DNA of 64,000 bases from Fibrobacter sp. UWB13. Lineage in GTDB: Bacteria; Fibrobacterota; Fibrobacteria; Fibrobacterales; Fibrobacteraceae. The stretch spans positions 186,001-250,000 of the forward strand of contig NZ_FXAX01000002.1 in NCBI RefSeq assembly GCF_900177805.1. Reading direction: 5' to 3'. Each line of letters starts with the position of its first letter. Positions within the stretch are counted from its first letter, which is position 1. Shown here piece after piece: positions 47,601 to 55,766 of this stretch. A model generated the notes under the pieces. It was not told where the DNA came from. It was given only the letters and a program-made list of their open reading frames with translations, and did no database searches. The translations under genes and the position numbers were made by a program.

Positions 47601-50270
47601 ATGAAAAATTCCATAATAGAGATTTTCAGAAATATGGACGAGGCTTTTAGCAAGCATCACCAGGCATGCAAAGCAATCACTTCGCAATATGGAGAAAGAC
47701 CTACAGGCGCCAAGCTCCAAGAAAGAAATGAAAAGGTCAAGTTAGCGAACCAAATATACGACGACGGAATAAAACTCCTCCCCAACATCGATTCTCTGTG
47801 TTCGGAAATTCGAAGTAAGCAACCTATTCTGAAAAAATTATCAAAATCATTCATAAACGAAACCTTTGACATTCCCGACAGCATCGCACTTGGATTATAT
47901 ACCTTTAAATCCAATTACCTCAAACACAAATCAAACGGAATCGATACCGATGAAATAAATGTTCCACACATGCATCGGTTCCCCATTGAAAAGCCAATGT
48001 ACATCGAAAACATCAAGGAACAAGCGCATCTTTTTCAAAAAATTATGCTTCGTTTGATGTTCACACTCCCGATGGACAGGCAAGAGTATTACGTCTATGA
48101 TCCTGTCGGACTTGGCGACATCGTAATGAATTTCAACCTTCTTTTCAAGAACGAAAAGTTGTTTCCACAAAAGAAGGTCATGACAAGCCAAGCAGACCTT
48201 AAGGAAGCCCTTAAAAAAGTCAAGGAATACATTAATTCCTTGAACGAAACCGCATTTAGCCCCACGGAAGGCATCACAGATTGGCTTAGCTACAACAGGC
48301 GAATACTCGAGGATTCCTCTGATTCCGAAAAAAAGAAATTGTTGCCTTACAAGGTGTTCATTTTCTCGGATATCGCCAATGAAATGGACCAGGAATGCTT
48401 TGACATGATCAAGGTCATCATTAACCAAAGCGCCAAATGCGGACTTTTGGTGATGTTCTCTTTTAATGAAGACTTGCTCCATTCCGAAGACCGAGTGTAT
48501 AGTCGCCGAAGACTCGAAGTTCAGCGAATTGTAAACGAAAGCATGGCTCTGCACAAAATGGTCGATGAGCCTGACGAAATCAAGGGTTTCAAGATTATCA
48601 AAGTAGCTCCAACCGGAGAAGATTTTCCGTCACCGCAAAAGTTAGGCGAATGTTTACGAGCATTGGATAAAGCAGTATCGGAACGTTCCAAGACAATGTT
48701 TGCATTTGACGATTTGCTGTCCGAAAAGAATCGAGCCGCAGGAAATTCCACGGAAGGCTTAAGCATTCCTGTAGGCTTTACGACTTCTGGTGGGCAAAAT
48801 GTTTCTATGGAAATTGGAGACGCAACACCTCACTTTTTAGTCGGTGGCATTACGGGTTCTGGAAAATCCAATTTCTTGCACGTTTTGATCATGAGTGCCT
48901 GTTGGAAATACACTCCAGACCAAATGGAACTTTACCTTTTGGACTTCAAAGAAGGTGTTGAATTCAAACAATACGGCGATGAAAAACTAGCCAACGTAAA
49001 GCTCGTAGCCACAGAAGCCAATACAGAATTTGGCGTCAAAGTTTTGGAACATCTAGATAAATTACGAAAAGAGCGATACGCGGAATTCAAAAAAAATTTA
49101 TGTAAGGATATCAAGGCGTACAATAGCGAGCCTAAAAAGAAGATGCCACGTATTCTAGTGATTATCGATGAATTCCAAGTCCTTTTTGACGGAACACAAA
49201 AAGACCGCACCATGGAAATGTTCATTATGCTTGCAAAGCAAGGACGAGCCTGCGGCATTCACATGGTACTTTCAACACAGTCTCTCAAGGGATTGGAATT
49301 TGGCAATGCGGCAAACCAGTTTGGCGGGCGAATCGCACTTAAGTGTTCTGCCGACGATTCAAAATTATTGCTAGGCGGCATATCTTCTAACAACGAAGAA
49401 GCTTCTGAACTAACGATTCCCTACGGAATTATGAATGTTTCGCAAGGGAGTATTGCAGGGAACATCAAGTTCGCCATTCCATGTGCGGTCGCATCAGACC
49501 CGGCAAAGAACCCGGTTCTCCCGAAAATCAAGATTATTAACGGAAATAAAGTTAATTCTTCAATCAAGATTTACAATGGTCCTGAATTTCCGTCTTTCCC
49601 AAACGAGGACGAATTTACAGCACACAACAAAGTGTCTGTATTACTAGGCGAGACTATCGATATTGATTCGGAAAGAAATCGTATTGAATTAACCAATAAG
49701 CCCGACAACAACATCCTCATTTGCGGTCGCGACGAGCAAATGAAAGTCAGCATGCTCAACTCTGTTATACTTTCGGCACTGCATTGCAATCGTATTGACG
49801 AGTGCGTGTATATCGGAGATGACGACGCATATTACGAAGAGTTTATTCGCGCCGGTAAAATCATCCACTTTGAATCCATTGTTGATTTTATTCAGGCACA
49901 TAAAGACAACTGGTTTGATAAACGCCGAATTGTCATATTAGACAATTGCAACTTAAAAAGGACTATATCGTTCTCATTCCCATTGTCCGATTACCCGAAG
50001 GACGAAAACAAAACAGCATTTATTCCATTCTGGTTTGACTGTTGTAAAAACGGATCCTTCATTATCGCTTTCTATGACAGAGCAAAATCCCTTAAAGATT
50101 ATGGAATTGACATTAACGCATTCAGTTATAGAATCGGATATGAACTGAATGGCGATGAAATGAATGAAGTGCTTTCTAACCGCGCACCAAACAAGATTGA
50201 TTGCAAGGGGAAAGCCTTCATGTCCTATAATTTGGAAATCAAATGGTGGTTTAAGCCATTCATGAAATAA
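47601..50270 (+). CDS. soluble FtsK/SpoIIIE-like ATPase with a second degenerate ATPase domain
   Basis: 889 residues. The N-terminal ~360 residues are helical and contain no transmembrane segment, unlike EccC/EssC or FtsK. The first motor domain (about 385-650) has Walker A GGITGSGKSNFLH (415-427), Walker B RILVIIDEFQ (about 517-526) and the FtsK-like LAKQGRACGIHMVLSTQ. A second domain (about 700-860) keeps the fold outline but has lost Walker A (ILICGRDEQMKVSML); RRIVILDNCN replaces Walker B. Tandem motors with a degenerate C-terminal one resemble type VII ATPases, where it docks WXG100 cargo. GGAGATTTATTTC precedes the ATG. It probably drives transfer or remodelling of the WXG100-like and UDG-like partners. 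Confidence 0.88.
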   Translation: MKNSIIEIFRNMDEAFSKHHQACKAITSQYGERPTGAKLQERNEKVKLANQIYDDGIKLLPNIDSLCSEIRSKQPILKKLSKSFINETFDIPDSIALGLYTFKSNYLKHKSNGIDTDEINVPHMHRFPIEKPMYIENIKEQAHLFQKIMLRLMFTLPMDRQEYYVYDPVGLGDIVMNFNLLFKNEKLFPQKKVMTSQADLKEALKKVKEYINSLNETAFSPTEGITDWLSYNRRILEDSSDSEKKKLLPYKVFIFSDIANEMDQECFDMIKVIINQSAKCGLLVMFSFNEDLLHSEDRVYSRRRLEVQRIVNESMALHKMVDEPDEIKGFKIIKVAPTGEDFPSPQKLGECLRALDKAVSERSKTMFAFDDLLSEKNRAAGNSTEGLSIPVGFTTSGGQNVSMEIGDATPHFLVGGITGSGKSNFLHVLIMSACWKYTPDQMELYLLDFKEGVEFKQYGDEKLANVKLVATEANTEFGVKVLEHLDKLRKERYAEFKKNLCKDIKAYNSEPKKKMPRILVIIDEFQVLFDGTQKDRTMEMFIMLAKQGRACGIHMVLSTQSLKGLEFGNAANQFGGRIALKCSADDSKLLLGGISSNNEEASELTIPYGIMNVSQGSIAGNIKFAIPCAVASDPAKNPVLPKIKIINGNKVNSSIKIYNGPEFPSFPNEDEFTAHNKVSVLLGETIDIDSERNRIELTNKPDNNILICGRDEQMKVSMLNSVILSALHCNRIDECVYIGDDDAYYEEFIRAGKIIHFESIVDFIQAHKDNWFDKRRIVILDNCNLKRTISFSFPLSDYPKDENKTAFIPFWFDCCKNGSFIIAFYDRAKSLKDYGIDINAFSYRIGYELNGDEMNEVLSNRAPNKIDCKGKAFMSYNLEIKWWFKPFMK

Positions 50271-50284
50271 GAGAATAAAGACAA

Positions 50285-51373
50285 ATGGGAAGAAATGTTG
50301 TAACAGACCTGAGAATATTTCAGGAAACTTGTAATGATATCCGAAATAACGAATCCTTAGTACAGGAAGCGTGTTCCCGTAGCTTGTCCGAATCCCAGCA
50401 AAAATTAGAAGAGACCCAACAAGAACTAGCTCACAGTAATCAACTTTTGCAAGAAGCAATTGCCGAAGAGATGCGCAGATTGGCAATTATGCAGGAATGC
50501 GAAGCCGAAGTCCAGGCGGCTGCGGCAGGACTTCCAGAAACAGCCGGTTGGTACGCAGACGCACAAAGGCGTTTAGCAATTGCCACTGCAGAATATGAAA
50601 AAGCTGTAGCTCACCGAATGCTCATGGAACAGCGCGTCGCCCTAGCGGAGCAATGCGTTTCAATGGCATCCAAGATGGTCGAAACGCTCATCACCAAATA
50701 CAATTACGGTCAAAATCAAATCAGCCATTATTCATCGGAAGGAATTAATCGGTTAAGCCAAGCCGATAGAGCTACAACAGAATATGTGTATGAAACGGTC
50801 AATATCGCTAATGCCAATGTAACGACACACCAATCAACCGACGCGAAAGTACAATATAATGTGTATAGTGAAAATTTAGGGAAAGAGGTTGTTTGTCTCG
50901 GATCTGTACCCGGTCAACACGAAGCTCAGGCGGGTCGCCCTTTTTCTGGTCAATCCGGGAAAAATTTGGAAGTCATACTCTCAAACTTAAATTACAATGG
51001 AAAGCCTTTATCAAGAGCAAAGGTTTCCATTGATAATAGTTGGGATAGTCCTCTTTGGATGGGAGAGCATGGTGTAACAGAAGCCCCGCTTAAGCAAGTC
51101 TGTAGTGATTCAAATTTGTCTAGACTCAATAACGAGATTGGAAAAAATACAAAGATTGTTATTGCTTTTGGGGACAATGCCTACGCTGCCGCAGAAGCTT
51201 TAAAAGCAAAATACAATTTGAAATTTGCAATCATAAAAACAGACCATCCTAGTATGGCTCATATAAACAGAACATACAAATCGCTGAAGGCAACAGAACA
51301 AGAACGTAATCTAGATCGATTAAGTCAAATGGCAGACAATATCAAAAAATCGTCTGGCGGTTTGCTGACCTAA
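50285..51373 (+). CDS. coiled-coil protein with C-terminal uracil-DNA-glycosylase-superfamily domain
   Basis: 362 residues. Residues about 20-165 form a long charged coiled coil (SESQQKLEETQQEL, AEYEKAVAHRMLMEQRVALA). Residues about 200-345 match the family 4/5 uracil-DNA glycosylase outline: GSVPGQHEAQAGRPFSGQSG at 206-225 (G-x-x-P-G...E...G-x-P-F-x-G), SIDNSW around N251, KIVIAFGDNAYAAAE at 290-304 and DHPSMAH at 320-326. The usual Fe-S cysteines of family 4 are not evident. The order of coiled-coil then enzyme resembles secreted effectors of type VII systems. Alternatively it is an intracellular anti-phage base-excision enzyme. It follows the ATPase gene after 14 bases and is last in the cassette. 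Confidence 0.78.
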   Translation: MGRNVVTDLRIFQETCNDIRNNESLVQEACSRSLSESQQKLEETQQELAHSNQLLQEAIAEEMRRLAIMQECEAEVQAAAAGLPETAGWYADAQRRLAIATAEYEKAVAHRMLMEQRVALAEQCVSMASKMVETLITKYNYGQNQISHYSSEGINRLSQADRATTEYVYETVNIANANVTTHQSTDAKVQYNVYSENLGKEVVCLGSVPGQHEAQAGRPFSGQSGKNLEVILSNLNYNGKPLSRAKVSIDNSWDSPLWMGEHGVTEAPLKQVCSDSNLSRLNNEIGKNTKIVIAFGDNAYAAAEALKAKYNLKFAIIKTDHPSMAHINRTYKSLKATEQERNLDRLSQMADNIKKSSGGLLT

Positions 51374-51574: not shown

Positions 51575-53062
51575 TTACCGATCCACCGGCAACATGAACG
51601 AGCGTGTTTTGCTACGCAAGATGTAAACGCCCTTGCCAAAGCCAGCGTTTTTCATCGTTTTTTGCATGTTCGGCACGTCGTTTTCGATGATTTCGACAAA
51701 TCCGAGGCGTTTGCCCGCAAGGTTATAGACACCGAACTTGCCAGCGGTAGTTGAGAGGCGAAGTGCCGTCGTTAAACCAACTGAAGGTTCCGCAATTTTC
51801 TTGAGCGTGACATTATCGAGCGTGAGCGTACCCGTCGAGGCGCCCGCATTGAAACTCAAACGAGAATCTTTATCGGTTGCGGCAGTCATCTGGAACTGGA
51901 AAGAATACTTCTTGGATTCCGTGCCGAGTTCGAAATTTGCCTTTTCGGTGAGGTAACTTGCCCACGGATCCGTGTGCTGTTCCACATTCACTTCGAGCGT
52001 GCGGGAGGCGCCAGCGCTAGCATCAAAGCTCACTTCGTACCACTGGCCTTTTTCGAGATGCAAGTCGTGCTGGATGAGCTGCACTTGGTAATTCTGGTCG
52101 CCAACGGCGGTGATGTTAAAATTGTACTTGCCGTTTTTCACATCGCCTGTTGCGGCGGCGCTACCGTGAGTCTGCAAAGTCCAGGCGACATCGGTCGAAT
52201 CAAAGCCGCCGTTGAAAATGCTGTCGCGGTCGGTCGGCACCTGAATTGGCGGCGGAAGCGAAGAGCCGTCCAGCGAATAATTCTTGACAAAATTCCAGAT
52301 TTCAACGCTCGTGTTGACACTGACCGCCTCGTCCATGGAATACCAGTGGCCCTTGCCTGCAATGGTGAGCAAGCGGACTTCGACGTTATCCTTGCAGCCG
52401 CTCCAGACTTCGAGAGAGGCGGCAGAACCCGGCTTGCTTGATGGATACGGCTTTGTGACCTTGGAACTTGAAGAGCACTTCTGCGCAGAAACCCAGCCCT
52501 TGAGGGTATTCACGGTGCTGTTGTAATTCACCACGTCATCGGAAGTGCCGTGGGTATGCATAATCGGCATGGCGCGCTTGGGCGAGTTCACGCCACCGCC
52601 ACCGGAAACCGGGGCAATGGCCGCAATCATATCGCCCATCTTGTTTGCCGCATGGTAGCTCATCATGCCGCCCATCGAGAATCCCGAAACGTAAACGCGA
52701 TTTTTGTCGATGCCGTACTTGTTGTACATTTCGTTGATAATCGCCTTGAGGAAATTGATGTCCTTGTCGCCACCGATGTCCCATGCCTTATTTTGGCCGT
52801 TCGGGAACACGACCACAAAGCGGGCCGTATCGGCAATCGGTTCCCACTTGGCAGCGTTCTGCTGATACGGGGCATCCTGATTCATGCCGTGCATCTGGAT
52901 AATAAGCGGACGGCCCTTTTCGATATTTCTCGGAGCATACACATTCATGGTACGGTTCGTGCCGTTCACATTAATGTTGTCTGCAAATGAAAAAGTGGTG
53001 AGACTCGCCAATACGGCAAGAGAAAGGACGCAATGCGCCTTCTTAAAAATTTTACCAAACAT
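51575..53062 (-). CDS. CE1-type esterase (feruloyl/acetylxylan esterase or PHB-depolymerase-like) with CBM and C-terminal module
   Basis: 495 residues. Signal peptide about 1-27 (TTFSFA-DNI). The alpha/beta-hydrolase domain (about 30-265) has nucleophile S129 in SGFSMGGMM, an acid in GTSDD (about 175-176) and H239 in GKGHWYSMDE. The family covers feruloyl and acetyl xylan esterases and PHB depolymerases; here xylan ester removal is the likely job. A jelly-roll domain like CBM4/22 follows (about 285-425; FNGGFDSTDVAWTLQTHG), then the shared tail (FGVYNLAGKRLGFVEI ... GVYILRSKTRS). AAGGAG precedes the ATG. A degenerate operator lies at about 53139-53156. Confidence 0.88.
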   Translation of the reverse strand: MFGKIFKKAHCVLSLAVLASLTTFSFADNINVNGTNRTMNVYAPRNIEKGRPLIIQMHGMNQDAPYQQNAAKWEPIADTARFVVVFPNGQNKAWDIGGDKDINFLKAIINEMYNKYGIDKNRVYVSGFSMGGMMSYHAANKMGDMIAAIAPVSGGGGVNSPKRAMPIMHTHGTSDDVVNYNSTVNTLKGWVSAQKCSSSSKVTKPYPSSKPGSAASLEVWSGCKDNVEVRLLTIAGKGHWYSMDEAVSVNTSVEIWNFVKNYSLDGSSLPPPIQVPTDRDSIFNGGFDSTDVAWTLQTHGSAAATGDVKNGKYNFNITAVGDQNYQVQLIQHDLHLEKGQWYEVSFDASAGASRTLEVNVEQHTDPWASYLTEKANFELGTESKKYSFQFQMTAATDKDSRLSFNAGASTGTLTLDNVTLKKIAEPSVGLTTALRLSTTAGKFGVYNLAGKRLGFVEIIENDVPNMQKTMKNAGFGKGVYILRSKTRSFMLPVDR

Positions 53063-53138
53063 TCCTCTACTCCTTGAGGTTTATTTCCCATTTTACCTAT
53101 GAAGAAAATACCTTTTGGATTGGCGATTATCACTTAGC

Positions 53139-53156
53139 GGTAAACATTTTCCATTG
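53139..53156 (+). promoter_or_regulatory. degenerate operator-like site upstream of CE1
   Basis: GGTAAACATTTTCCATTG shares ACATTTT and the flanking pattern with the better sites and is 77 bp from the ATG at 53062. A -10-like TAAAAT (minus strand) lies about 44 bp further on. It is kept because the spacing fits. Confidence 0.3.
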
Positions 53157-53198
53157 CGGTTTTGACAATGGGTTGAGAGGAGGAAATGTGTAATAGGA

Positions 53199-53372
53199 GT
53201 GTTTACAGAACACAAAAACGGTCAGGATATACACGCTTAAAAATACTTGCGTATTTCAGCGTGTGCATCCTGACCTTGGGGGTGTTTACAGAACACAAAA
53301 CGGGCTGGAAATGCATATTTGAAAACATCGTTTTCAATATGCGCTTCCAGCCCTTGGGGGTGTTTGAGGAAC
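53199..53372. repeat. tandem structured hairpin modules with conserved ends and different stems
   Basis: GTGTTTACAGAACAC at 53199-53213 recurs exactly at 53282-53296 and partly at 53360-53372. Each copy is followed by AAAA(A)C and a long hairpin: GGTCAGGAT...ATCCTGACC (53220-53275) in the first, GGGCTGGAA...TTCCAGCCC (53302-53353) in the second. CTTGGGG(G) closes each. The stems differ in sequence, yet in both the 9-bp outer stem is followed by an A/C mismatch and a T/G wobble before an inner stem. The modules fill most of the 329-base gap between the GH43 stop and the CE1 start. They may act as terminators of the GH43 gene. Confidence 0.75.
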
Positions 53373-53391: not shown

Positions 53392-55728
53392 TTACTTTGT
53401 TACGGAGAGGCGGAGGGTGGTGCCGGTGGTGAGGGACTTGACGACGTACACGCCGCTTTCCTTCACAAGGCTGTTCACCTTGCTGCGCACATCGAAGTTG
53501 CTAGAAGCATCGACGCGGCCGACAAACTTACCGTTCAAACCATAGACGCTATAAGACTGTACGCCTTGCACATTATGGAGAACGCCCTTTGCCAAGCCAA
53601 CAATGGGATCCGGATCCGTTGCATTCGCACCCTTCACGAACGTAAAGTAGTCGATATCAAGCCAGGAGCCAACAACCGTAAAGCGGAGTACATGTTCGCC
53701 TTCCGGGAGTTTTACGTTTGCCTTTACCTTGTTATAATCGTCATAATTTTCTTCGCCGGAACTTGCCGCCGGAACAGAGAGTTCTTCGGTAATGTCCTTG
53801 CCATCCAAGGAGAGCTTGAAGCTCGAGGTGGAGCCAGCCGCAGCAACCGCAGCAAACATGGTGTAATCGCCTTCTTCCTTCACATTCACGGTGTATTCGA
53901 GCCAGTCGCCTTCACTGTTATAGCCCACAATGACACCGGTTGCCTTCTTGTAAAGGTCAACGCCCGTGCCCTTGCGGTAGTCGCTATCGCCGTGGTTTTC
54001 GGAATCGCCATCATAGTAAGAGGAACCATCTTTGCCCTTGCCCGGCACGTCAAAGTTTTCAGCTTCAATCTTGCCCGGGATTGCATTTGCAGGGCAGTTT
54101 TCGCCTGCAGCGCAGAACGGAGTCTGCGGAACAGGTTCAGAACCAGCGCCGTCGAGATAAATTTCATCGTTCACGTCGGTACCGACCTTGAACCAGTCGA
54201 AGTCTGCATAGCCGCCCGCCTGCTTGGTCGCAAAGTTGAAGAGGCCCCAACGCACGCCCACGAACATGTGCAAGTCGTAATTGAGTTTCACGTCACTACC
54301 GATCTTTGTCCAGGTATTGCCATCGGTGCTGTAGTAGAAATATGCAGTACCGCGGTCAATGGGCAAATCGAAATCAATTCGCAAATAAACCTTGGAGTCC
54401 GAAAGAGCTTGGCTTGCAGCTTGTCTTTCGCCGTCCTTGTTTCCAGTGTACATCACAACCTTGTAGTTGCCGTTTTCCTTAGCAAGCGCGACAAAGCCCT
54501 TGTCATCCTGCAAAGCAACGAGGCCCGCCATGTCTCCATCCTTCATGCCCTTGCCGTCAACAAGCGTACGGCCAGAACTCTTAGGGCCAAAGGAACGCTG
54601 TGTCAAAGTGTTCTTTGCATTCACGACACGGCTATCCGTGCGGCCCGTGGTAATGCGGAAAAATCCCGGATTTGCAGACAAGCTCCAGTTTTTGTTATCG
54701 GGGTTATGGTTGAACTGCCATTCGAGAGCAAGTTCGCCAGATTCAAAATCGTCACTCGTGACCATGCCGTAGCCCGGGAGCGGAGATTCCGGCAAGTCAA
54801 TTGTCGAAGGAGCCTTAGATCCGCTCGTCGGAACCGGCCAACCATCCTTCCATTCCATCGGGACCAAGTGCGACATACGACCAACCGGGCCGGAATCGCG
54901 GAACAGGAGGGCATACCACTTGCCATCGGGAGTATCGAAAATGCCACCCTGCGCAACACCGTTATCGGAGAGGAAATACCTTCCGCTGTAACCAGAGAGC
55001 AGGCTCTTGGAACGGTAAACAATTTCACTGCGGCTCTTGCCAGCCGGCCAAGAAATCGTAAACAAGTAATATTCGCCGTTCACCTTTTCCATGTGCGAAC
55101 CTTCTTGCTGCACATAGTAATTGCTGGTGCCGGTCACCTGGTTCACGCTCACGCCGCCAACCTTACCGCTCTTGCCGCCAGCCTTCACGCCGCTAGCGTC
55201 GTCGTTCAACTGCACGTAGCTAATCTGGTCGCCGCTGCCGTAGAACACCCAAACAGTGCCATCGTCATCGAAGAACAAAGAGGGGTCGTGATAGAACGGG
55301 AGCTGCACTTCGGACCACTGGCCACTTTCCACATCGGCGGTCTTGTACAAATGAGTTTTGCCCGTCGTGTAAGACGGGGTCAGCACGTAGAAAAATCCCT
55401 TGTGGTAGCGGATGCTCGATGCCCAGGAGCCCTTACCGTAGGCATCCTTGCCGCCATTCAAATTCTGCTGGTCATTGTTGGTGAGCGTCTGGTAGGCATA
55501 ACCCACCGTGCGCCACTGCGCCAAATCCGTGCTCTTGAAAACAGGCACGCCAGGCGCAAAGTGCATGGTCGTTGTGACCATGTAATAAGCATCGTCGACG
55601 CGGACAATCGAGGGGTCCGGGCTATCGACGTACATAATCGGGTTATTGACCGATACTGCAAAGCTATTCACCACGGCAAAGCCAGCGACAACGGCTGCAG
55701 CTTTTGCCATCTTACTAAACAATCCCAT
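53392..55728 (-). CDS. GH43 beta-xylosidase/arabinofuranosidase-type enzyme with CBM6 and C-terminal module
   Basis: 778 residues from the ATG at 55728, which follows AAAGGAGTGATT; the GTG at 55734 is too near the Shine-Dalgarno. Signal peptide about 1-24 (VVNSFA-VSV). The GH43 domain has D38 (YVDSPDPSI), D148 (YHDPSLFF) and E209 (QQEGSHMEK). A beta-sandwich domain typical of xylosidase-type GH43 (about 330-535; GMVTSDDFESGELALEWQFN) follows, giving a layout like GH43 subfamily 12 enzymes. Then come CBM6 (about 555-695; IPGKIEAENFDVPG) and the shared tail (YSVYGLNGKFVGRVDA ... GVYVVKSL). Likely an exported side-chain or oligosaccharide hydrolase of arabinoxylan. Confidence 0.92.
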   Translation of the reverse strand: MGLFSKMAKAAAVVAGFAVVNSFAVSVNNPIMYVDSPDPSIVRVDDAYYMVTTTMHFAPGVPVFKSTDLAQWRTVGYAYQTLTNNDQQNLNGGKDAYGKGSWASSIRYHKGFFYVLTPSYTTGKTHLYKTADVESGQWSEVQLPFYHDPSLFFDDDGTVWVFYGSGDQISYVQLNDDASGVKAGGKSGKVGGVSVNQVTGTSNYYVQQEGSHMEKVNGEYYLFTISWPAGKSRSEIVYRSKSLLSGYSGRYFLSDNGVAQGGIFDTPDGKWYALLFRDSGPVGRMSHLVPMEWKDGWPVPTSGSKAPSTIDLPESPLPGYGMVTSDDFESGELALEWQFNHNPDNKNWSLSANPGFFRITTGRTDSRVVNAKNTLTQRSFGPKSSGRTLVDGKGMKDGDMAGLVALQDDKGFVALAKENGNYKVVMYTGNKDGERQAASQALSDSKVYLRIDFDLPIDRGTAYFYYSTDGNTWTKIGSDVKLNYDLHMFVGVRWGLFNFATKQAGGYADFDWFKVGTDVNDEIYLDGAGSEPVPQTPFCAAGENCPANAIPGKIEAENFDVPGKGKDGSSYYDGDSENHGDSDYRKGTGVDLYKKATGVIVGYNSEGDWLEYTVNVKEEGDYTMFAAVAAAGSTSSFKLSLDGKDITEELSVPAASSGEENYDDYNKVKANVKLPEGEHVLRFTVVGSWLDIDYFTFVKGANATDPDPIVGLAKGVLHNVQGVQSYSVYGLNGKFVGRVDASSNFDVRSKVNSLVKESGVYVVKSLTTGTTLRLSVTK

Positions 55729-55766
55729 AATCACTCCTTTTCCAACCTAACTGGATATGATCTACA

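Follow-up and report, generated by a model that had tools for sequence, protein, structure and literature searches.

We identified, in a stretch of 64,000 nucleotides from Fibrobacter sp. UWB13 (hereafter the window), two tandem hairpin modules that most likely end or protect the message of a gene for a xylan-degrading enzyme of family GH43. The hairpin element is real and conserved, and it is previously unnoted as far as our literature search shows, since no paper on it was found. Judging from comparison of the sequences, the modules are probably 3'-end hairpins of the GH43 mRNA and most likely act as terminators. The features of the locus are as follows.

51575..53062, minus strand: secreted esterase gene with CBM_4_9, the next gene downstream of GH43 and on the same strand
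53063..53198, minus strand: esterase upstream region, beginning after the array
53199..53281, minus strand: module 1 (stem type C), with its hairpin at 53220-53275 and the U-rich tail GTTTTTGTGTTCTG on the minus strand
53282..53359, minus strand: module 2 (stem type D), with its hairpin at 53302-53353 and the tail GTTTTGTGTTCTG
53360..53372, minus strand: boundary of the array on the GH43 side, a partial module edge (GTGTTTGAGGAAC) found in most relatives
53392..55734, minus strand: GH43 + GH43_C2 + CBM6 gene (xylan-degrading enzyme), with the modules in its 3' UTR

The motif GTGTTTACAGAACAC starts at 53199 and again at 53282, and each copy is followed by an A-rich spacer, a long hairpin and CTTGGGG. 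The initial annotation had described two hairpins with the same ends, with stems of different sequence that share a 9-bp outer stem, an A.C mismatch and a T.G pair, and with a third, partial copy of the edge behind them. All of this was borne out in both modules, and the partial edge at 53360-53372 proved to be a regular array boundary in most relatives. The predicted RNA folds of the window modules have energies of -36.8 and -36.3 kcal/mol, and none of 200 dinucleotide shuffles was as stable (z -7.4 and -7.2); over both strands of both modules, the fold z-scores against dinucleotide shuffles lie between -7.2 and -7.9. The edge that begins with GTGTTT comes in an AACAC and an AACAACC form, and the small GTGTT/AACAC edge hairpin is therefore not conserved. 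Several relatives have GTGTTTNNAGAACAACC instead, and we rejected this small hairpin as a functional part.

A BLAST search of 80 Fibrobacter genomes found relatives of the modules in eleven other genomes, and in the relatives that we read an MGLFSK-type orthologue of the GH43 gene stands at the equivalent place. We then used a covariance model built on 19 modules to search the source genome, the 80 Fibrobacter genomes and 168 genomes of the phylum. This search across Fibrobacter, which the initial annotation had suggested, returned 23 modules in 12 of the 80 genomes, with strong covariation and always between the GH43/CBM6 and secreted esterase genes. The arrays of the carriers comprise one to four modules, and the copy number thus varies between species, as had also been raised. 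No convincing module was found outside the GH43-esterase locus in the 80 Fibrobacter genomes, nor outside the genus among the 168 phylum genomes. The weak off-locus matches within the genus, in G058 (30.7 bits), G074, G035 and G012 and one in G005, all scored 31 bits or less and were taken as chance; the G058 match, the one that was read, looked unrelated. Copies of the edge motif elsewhere in the source genome amounted to two-mismatch matches, no more than the control level. A search of all GTDB representatives for the edge-plus-stem pattern gave four Fibrobacter records, together with one Bacteroidia and one Papillibacter match that were rejected for their low scores (17.7 and 9.5 bits) and coding-like sequence. 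The viral contigs searched held no modules, and Rfam 15 gave no match at gathering score, with sub-threshold microRNA-like and other hairpin matches only. A scan of 464 kb of the same genome brought up no further array of long interrupted hairpins in tandem, and the strong short-loop hairpins found there were mostly ordinary terminators with 10-15 bp stems and flanking A- or T-runs. With a single locus and nothing convincing elsewhere, the module family does not qualify as a dispersed repeat, nor as a widespread RNA family.

The structure was assessed on 19 modules, whose cells are not independent since only four stem types are present. On this basis pairing holds in 93% of cells, and 15 of the 23 stem pairs show change on both sides with pairing kept. 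The covariation score was 0.57; shuffles gave 0.21, and slid structures did not exceed 0.10. The initial annotation had argued for selection on structure, and the pairing is indeed kept despite changed sequence; however, covariation alone is no proof of selection, because template switching in replication can also create and maintain perfectly paired inverted repeats without selection on each change (PMC8794818). The paired changes are almost all from one Watson-Crick pair to another, with a near absence of intermediates between paired states, which fits template switching. On the other hand, the A.C mismatch is present in 19/19 modules and the T.G pair in 18/19, and the persistence of this doublet speaks for some selection against full correction as well, but with only four types in all, shared ancestry could contribute.

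Several lines of evidence suggest that the relevant strand is probably the minus strand and not the one read in the initial annotation. A U-rich tail, GUUUUUGUGUUCU, follows each hairpin on the minus-strand transcript, and this tail is G-U(4-6)-rich in most modules. All seven one-sided departures of the transition kind outside the fixed doublet are A.C on the plus strand, equivalent to G.U on the minus strand, and none is a plus-strand G.U. These seven cells sit in B_L011, A_L010, A_L017 and two C modules, two of them in the apical part of type C where the alignment is doubtful, and they represent perhaps four or five independent events (rough p 0.03-0.06 by our own estimate); the strand inference is therefore suggestive, not conclusive. 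The hairpin cores are more stable on the minus strand in 15/19 cases, which is not so for whole modules with their edges, and the terminator score is higher on the minus than on the plus strand in 15 of the 16 modules compared.

On the GH43 transcript module 2 is proximal, the first after the stop codon, and module 1 is distal. The order in the sense direction is the GH43 stop codon, about 40 nt, a C-rich lead, the hairpin, the U-rich tail, the next module and the esterase upstream region. The first stem-loop thus lies about 40 nt past the stop codon on the sense strand, where a terminator is expected, and no other terminator was found between the stop codon and the modules. We propose that these minus-strand units, each with a C-rich lead (AAACACCCCCAAGG), an interrupted stem of about 24 bp and then the U-rich tail, would work as tandem long stem-loops of the terminator type, which may terminate transcription and/or protect the 3' end of the mRNA and would insulate the esterase gene, apparently served by a promoter of its own. 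Three relatives that share the gene order but lack the modules (G018, G061 and G052) have a hairpin plus U-run at exactly the array position, and these canonical terminators read GGCCCCCGTTATGGGGGCTTCTTTTG, GGGTCCCCGTTTTCGGGGACTTTTTT and GGCCTCCGTTATCGGGGGCTTTTTTT, respectively. A similar lead (TTCCTCC...CACA...AAGG) precedes the terminators of G052 and G061, and the more distant G003 also has a canonical terminator at the array position. This positional orthology is the strongest clue to what we take to be the probable function. In G061 and G052 (L129 and L128 being the loci of G052 and G061) there is extra DNA between the GH43 and esterase genes after the canonical terminator; G061 has a small ORF there, about 250 codons long, and G052 has about 1.3 kb of partly coding-like sequence.

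The tail sequence of the hairpins is GUUUUUGUG; in most modules it takes the form GTTTTTGTGTTCT, with a U-run broken by G, and in some it is poor, for example GTTCTGG in module B of G008. By the classical terminator score all 16 modules lie at or below threshold (best +0.2, typically about -13), a consequence of the long stem and the broken U-run. Of the six ordinary Fibrobacter terminators compared, five were well above the threshold. Ordinary termination leaves the 24-bp stem, the fixed C.A/G.U doublet and the presence of up to four copies unexplained.

The esterase upstream region (53063..53198) is probably the promoter region of the esterase gene itself. It contains a TTGTCA/CCATTG...CAATGG block that is common to several relatives, and a weak promoter-like match on the minus strand at 53153-53126. 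Two clearly different alleles of this region occur among close relatives (window 53063-53180; the equivalent region in L061/L063 versus L062/L064), and they do not track esterase identity, which suggests recombination at the GH43-esterase locus. Further along, the window carries at 47601-51373 (plus strand) an FtsK/HerA-type ATPase gene, which has weak matches to defence proteins (SspH and mads_8); the gene immediately after it has a uracil-DNA-glycosylase-superfamily domain. These could form a two-gene defence-like system beside the xylan-degradation cluster.

Four recurring stem types were found, A (CTTGGATATACCC...), B (CCAGGAAATGGATG...), C (window module 1) and D (window module 2), together with hybrids whose left arm is of type A or C and whose right arm is a different one that ends in TTGGTTGTTCT. 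The hybrids lie in the esterase-side part of the arrays L123, L124 and L125 (G008, G046 and G001), most of them with an extra 11-bp outer stem (AGAACAACCAA/TTGGTTGTTCT), and G005 has a right-half remnant only. The number and order of types differ between species: given from the GH43 side, the array is D-C in the window, B-D-hybrid-hybrid in G008 and C-A-B in G054, and there is a single type A module in G043, G067 and G071. Types A-D are spread over both halves of the GH43 protein tree, in which G018, which has an ordinary terminator, groups as sister to the three-module G054; the arrays have thus apparently been gained, lost or exchanged between species. In our reading the array took over the place of an ordinary intrinsic terminator, and it probably evolved from one. 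The copies would have arisen by tandem duplication, the stems would afterwards have diverged into four types through paired changes, and modules may have been swapped by recombination through their near-identical edges.

RNA processing or stabilisation is the main rival to the terminator reading, and we consider it unlikely. Instead of stopping RNA polymerase, the hairpins would then act on a joint GH43-esterase mRNA, through an RNase III cut or a block to 3' exonucleases at the 24-bp duplex with its internal wobble/mismatch, and set differing levels of the two enzymes. A stem that spans about two helical turns and has a fixed irregularity inside it, the location of both genes on the same strand and the sub-threshold terminator scores are consistent with this, but the esterase gene seems to possess an upstream region of its own, and the replacement of the array by canonical terminators in sister species points to separate transcription units. 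There is also a small chance that the modules are self-perpetuating palindromes that do little, their arms being matched by template switching and the covariation being mostly mutational. Template switching is documented for RNA hairpins (PMC8794818) and predicts the near-exclusive Watson-Crick to Watson-Crick changes, and the hybrid stems of G008, G046 and G001 show rearrangement at the level of arms. Correction of the arms should nevertheless erase the A.C/T.G doublet, which is kept (19/19 and 18/19), and the array is always in the place of a terminator and not just anywhere.

Equally improbable, in our judgment, is a locus-specific regulatory RNA defined by its shape, in which interchangeable hairpin cassettes with a conserved G.U/C.A doublet would be bound by a protein or nuclease, would tune GH43-esterase output through their type and number, and would be exchanged between Fibrobacter species. 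A stand-alone small RNA or antitoxin-like RNA array on either strand is very unlikely: the units are structured, tandem and covarying, but they have no Rfam match at gathering score, no toxin-like partner gene beside the array, no promoter-like match found inside it, and a fixed place in the GH43 3' UTR. Scarcely credible is a DNA-level element, an attC-like or REP-like single-stranded hairpin for a recombinase or transposase, in which the asymmetric A.C/T.G doublet would select the strand. The modules do resemble attC and REP elements in their logic, with edges that are constant, stems that vary and an asymmetric mismatch that is fixed, and they are present or absent among sister species. Each genome has one locus only, however, with no cassettes between modules and no integrase or transposase gene adjoining the array among the neighbouring genes examined, and ordinary homologous recombination between edges can shuffle the modules. 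The suggestion in the initial annotation of a single-stranded DNA hairpin recognised by an enzyme is not supported, given the lack of copies elsewhere in the genome, the lack of a linked enzyme gene and the position of the array where an ordinary terminator stands.

Most probably, the array is an ordinary 3'-end signal in an unusual form, tandem and diversified. It offers a rare natural series among close relatives, in which one 3'-end signal takes the form of an ordinary terminator or of one to four diversified long hairpins, and it lends itself to studying how terminators grow and multiply without losing their fold, and to telling apart selection and template switching as sources of covariation. 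It may also be relevant to how a rumen bacterium expresses its xylan-degrading enzymes.

Among known systems, the modules resemble REP/BIME sequences in being intergenic, imperfectly palindromic and downstream of genes, and in having conserved irregularities, but REPs are dispersed in many copies, whereas the modules occupy one locus per genome. They share with the attC sites of integrons conserved ends, a sequence-variable stem and fixed unpaired positions, but lack R'/R'' core pairing ends, gene cassettes and a nearby integrase; GTGTTTACAGAACAC and CTTGGGG are unpaired with each other in the fold, and the modules abut directly. Hairpins cut by RNase III in 3' UTRs or between cistrons are similar in duplex length, internal mismatch and placement between two genes on the same strand. 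With intrinsic (Rho-independent) terminators, including tandem ones, the modules have in common their place after a stop codon, a G+C-rich stem base, a sense-strand tail that is U-rich though broken by G, and tandem copies, and canonical terminators fill their place in sister species. They differ from these in a stem of about 24 bp with a fixed mismatch doublet, a U-run that is interrupted and comes after a G, as many as four diversified copies that share their edges, and scores at or below the usual threshold.
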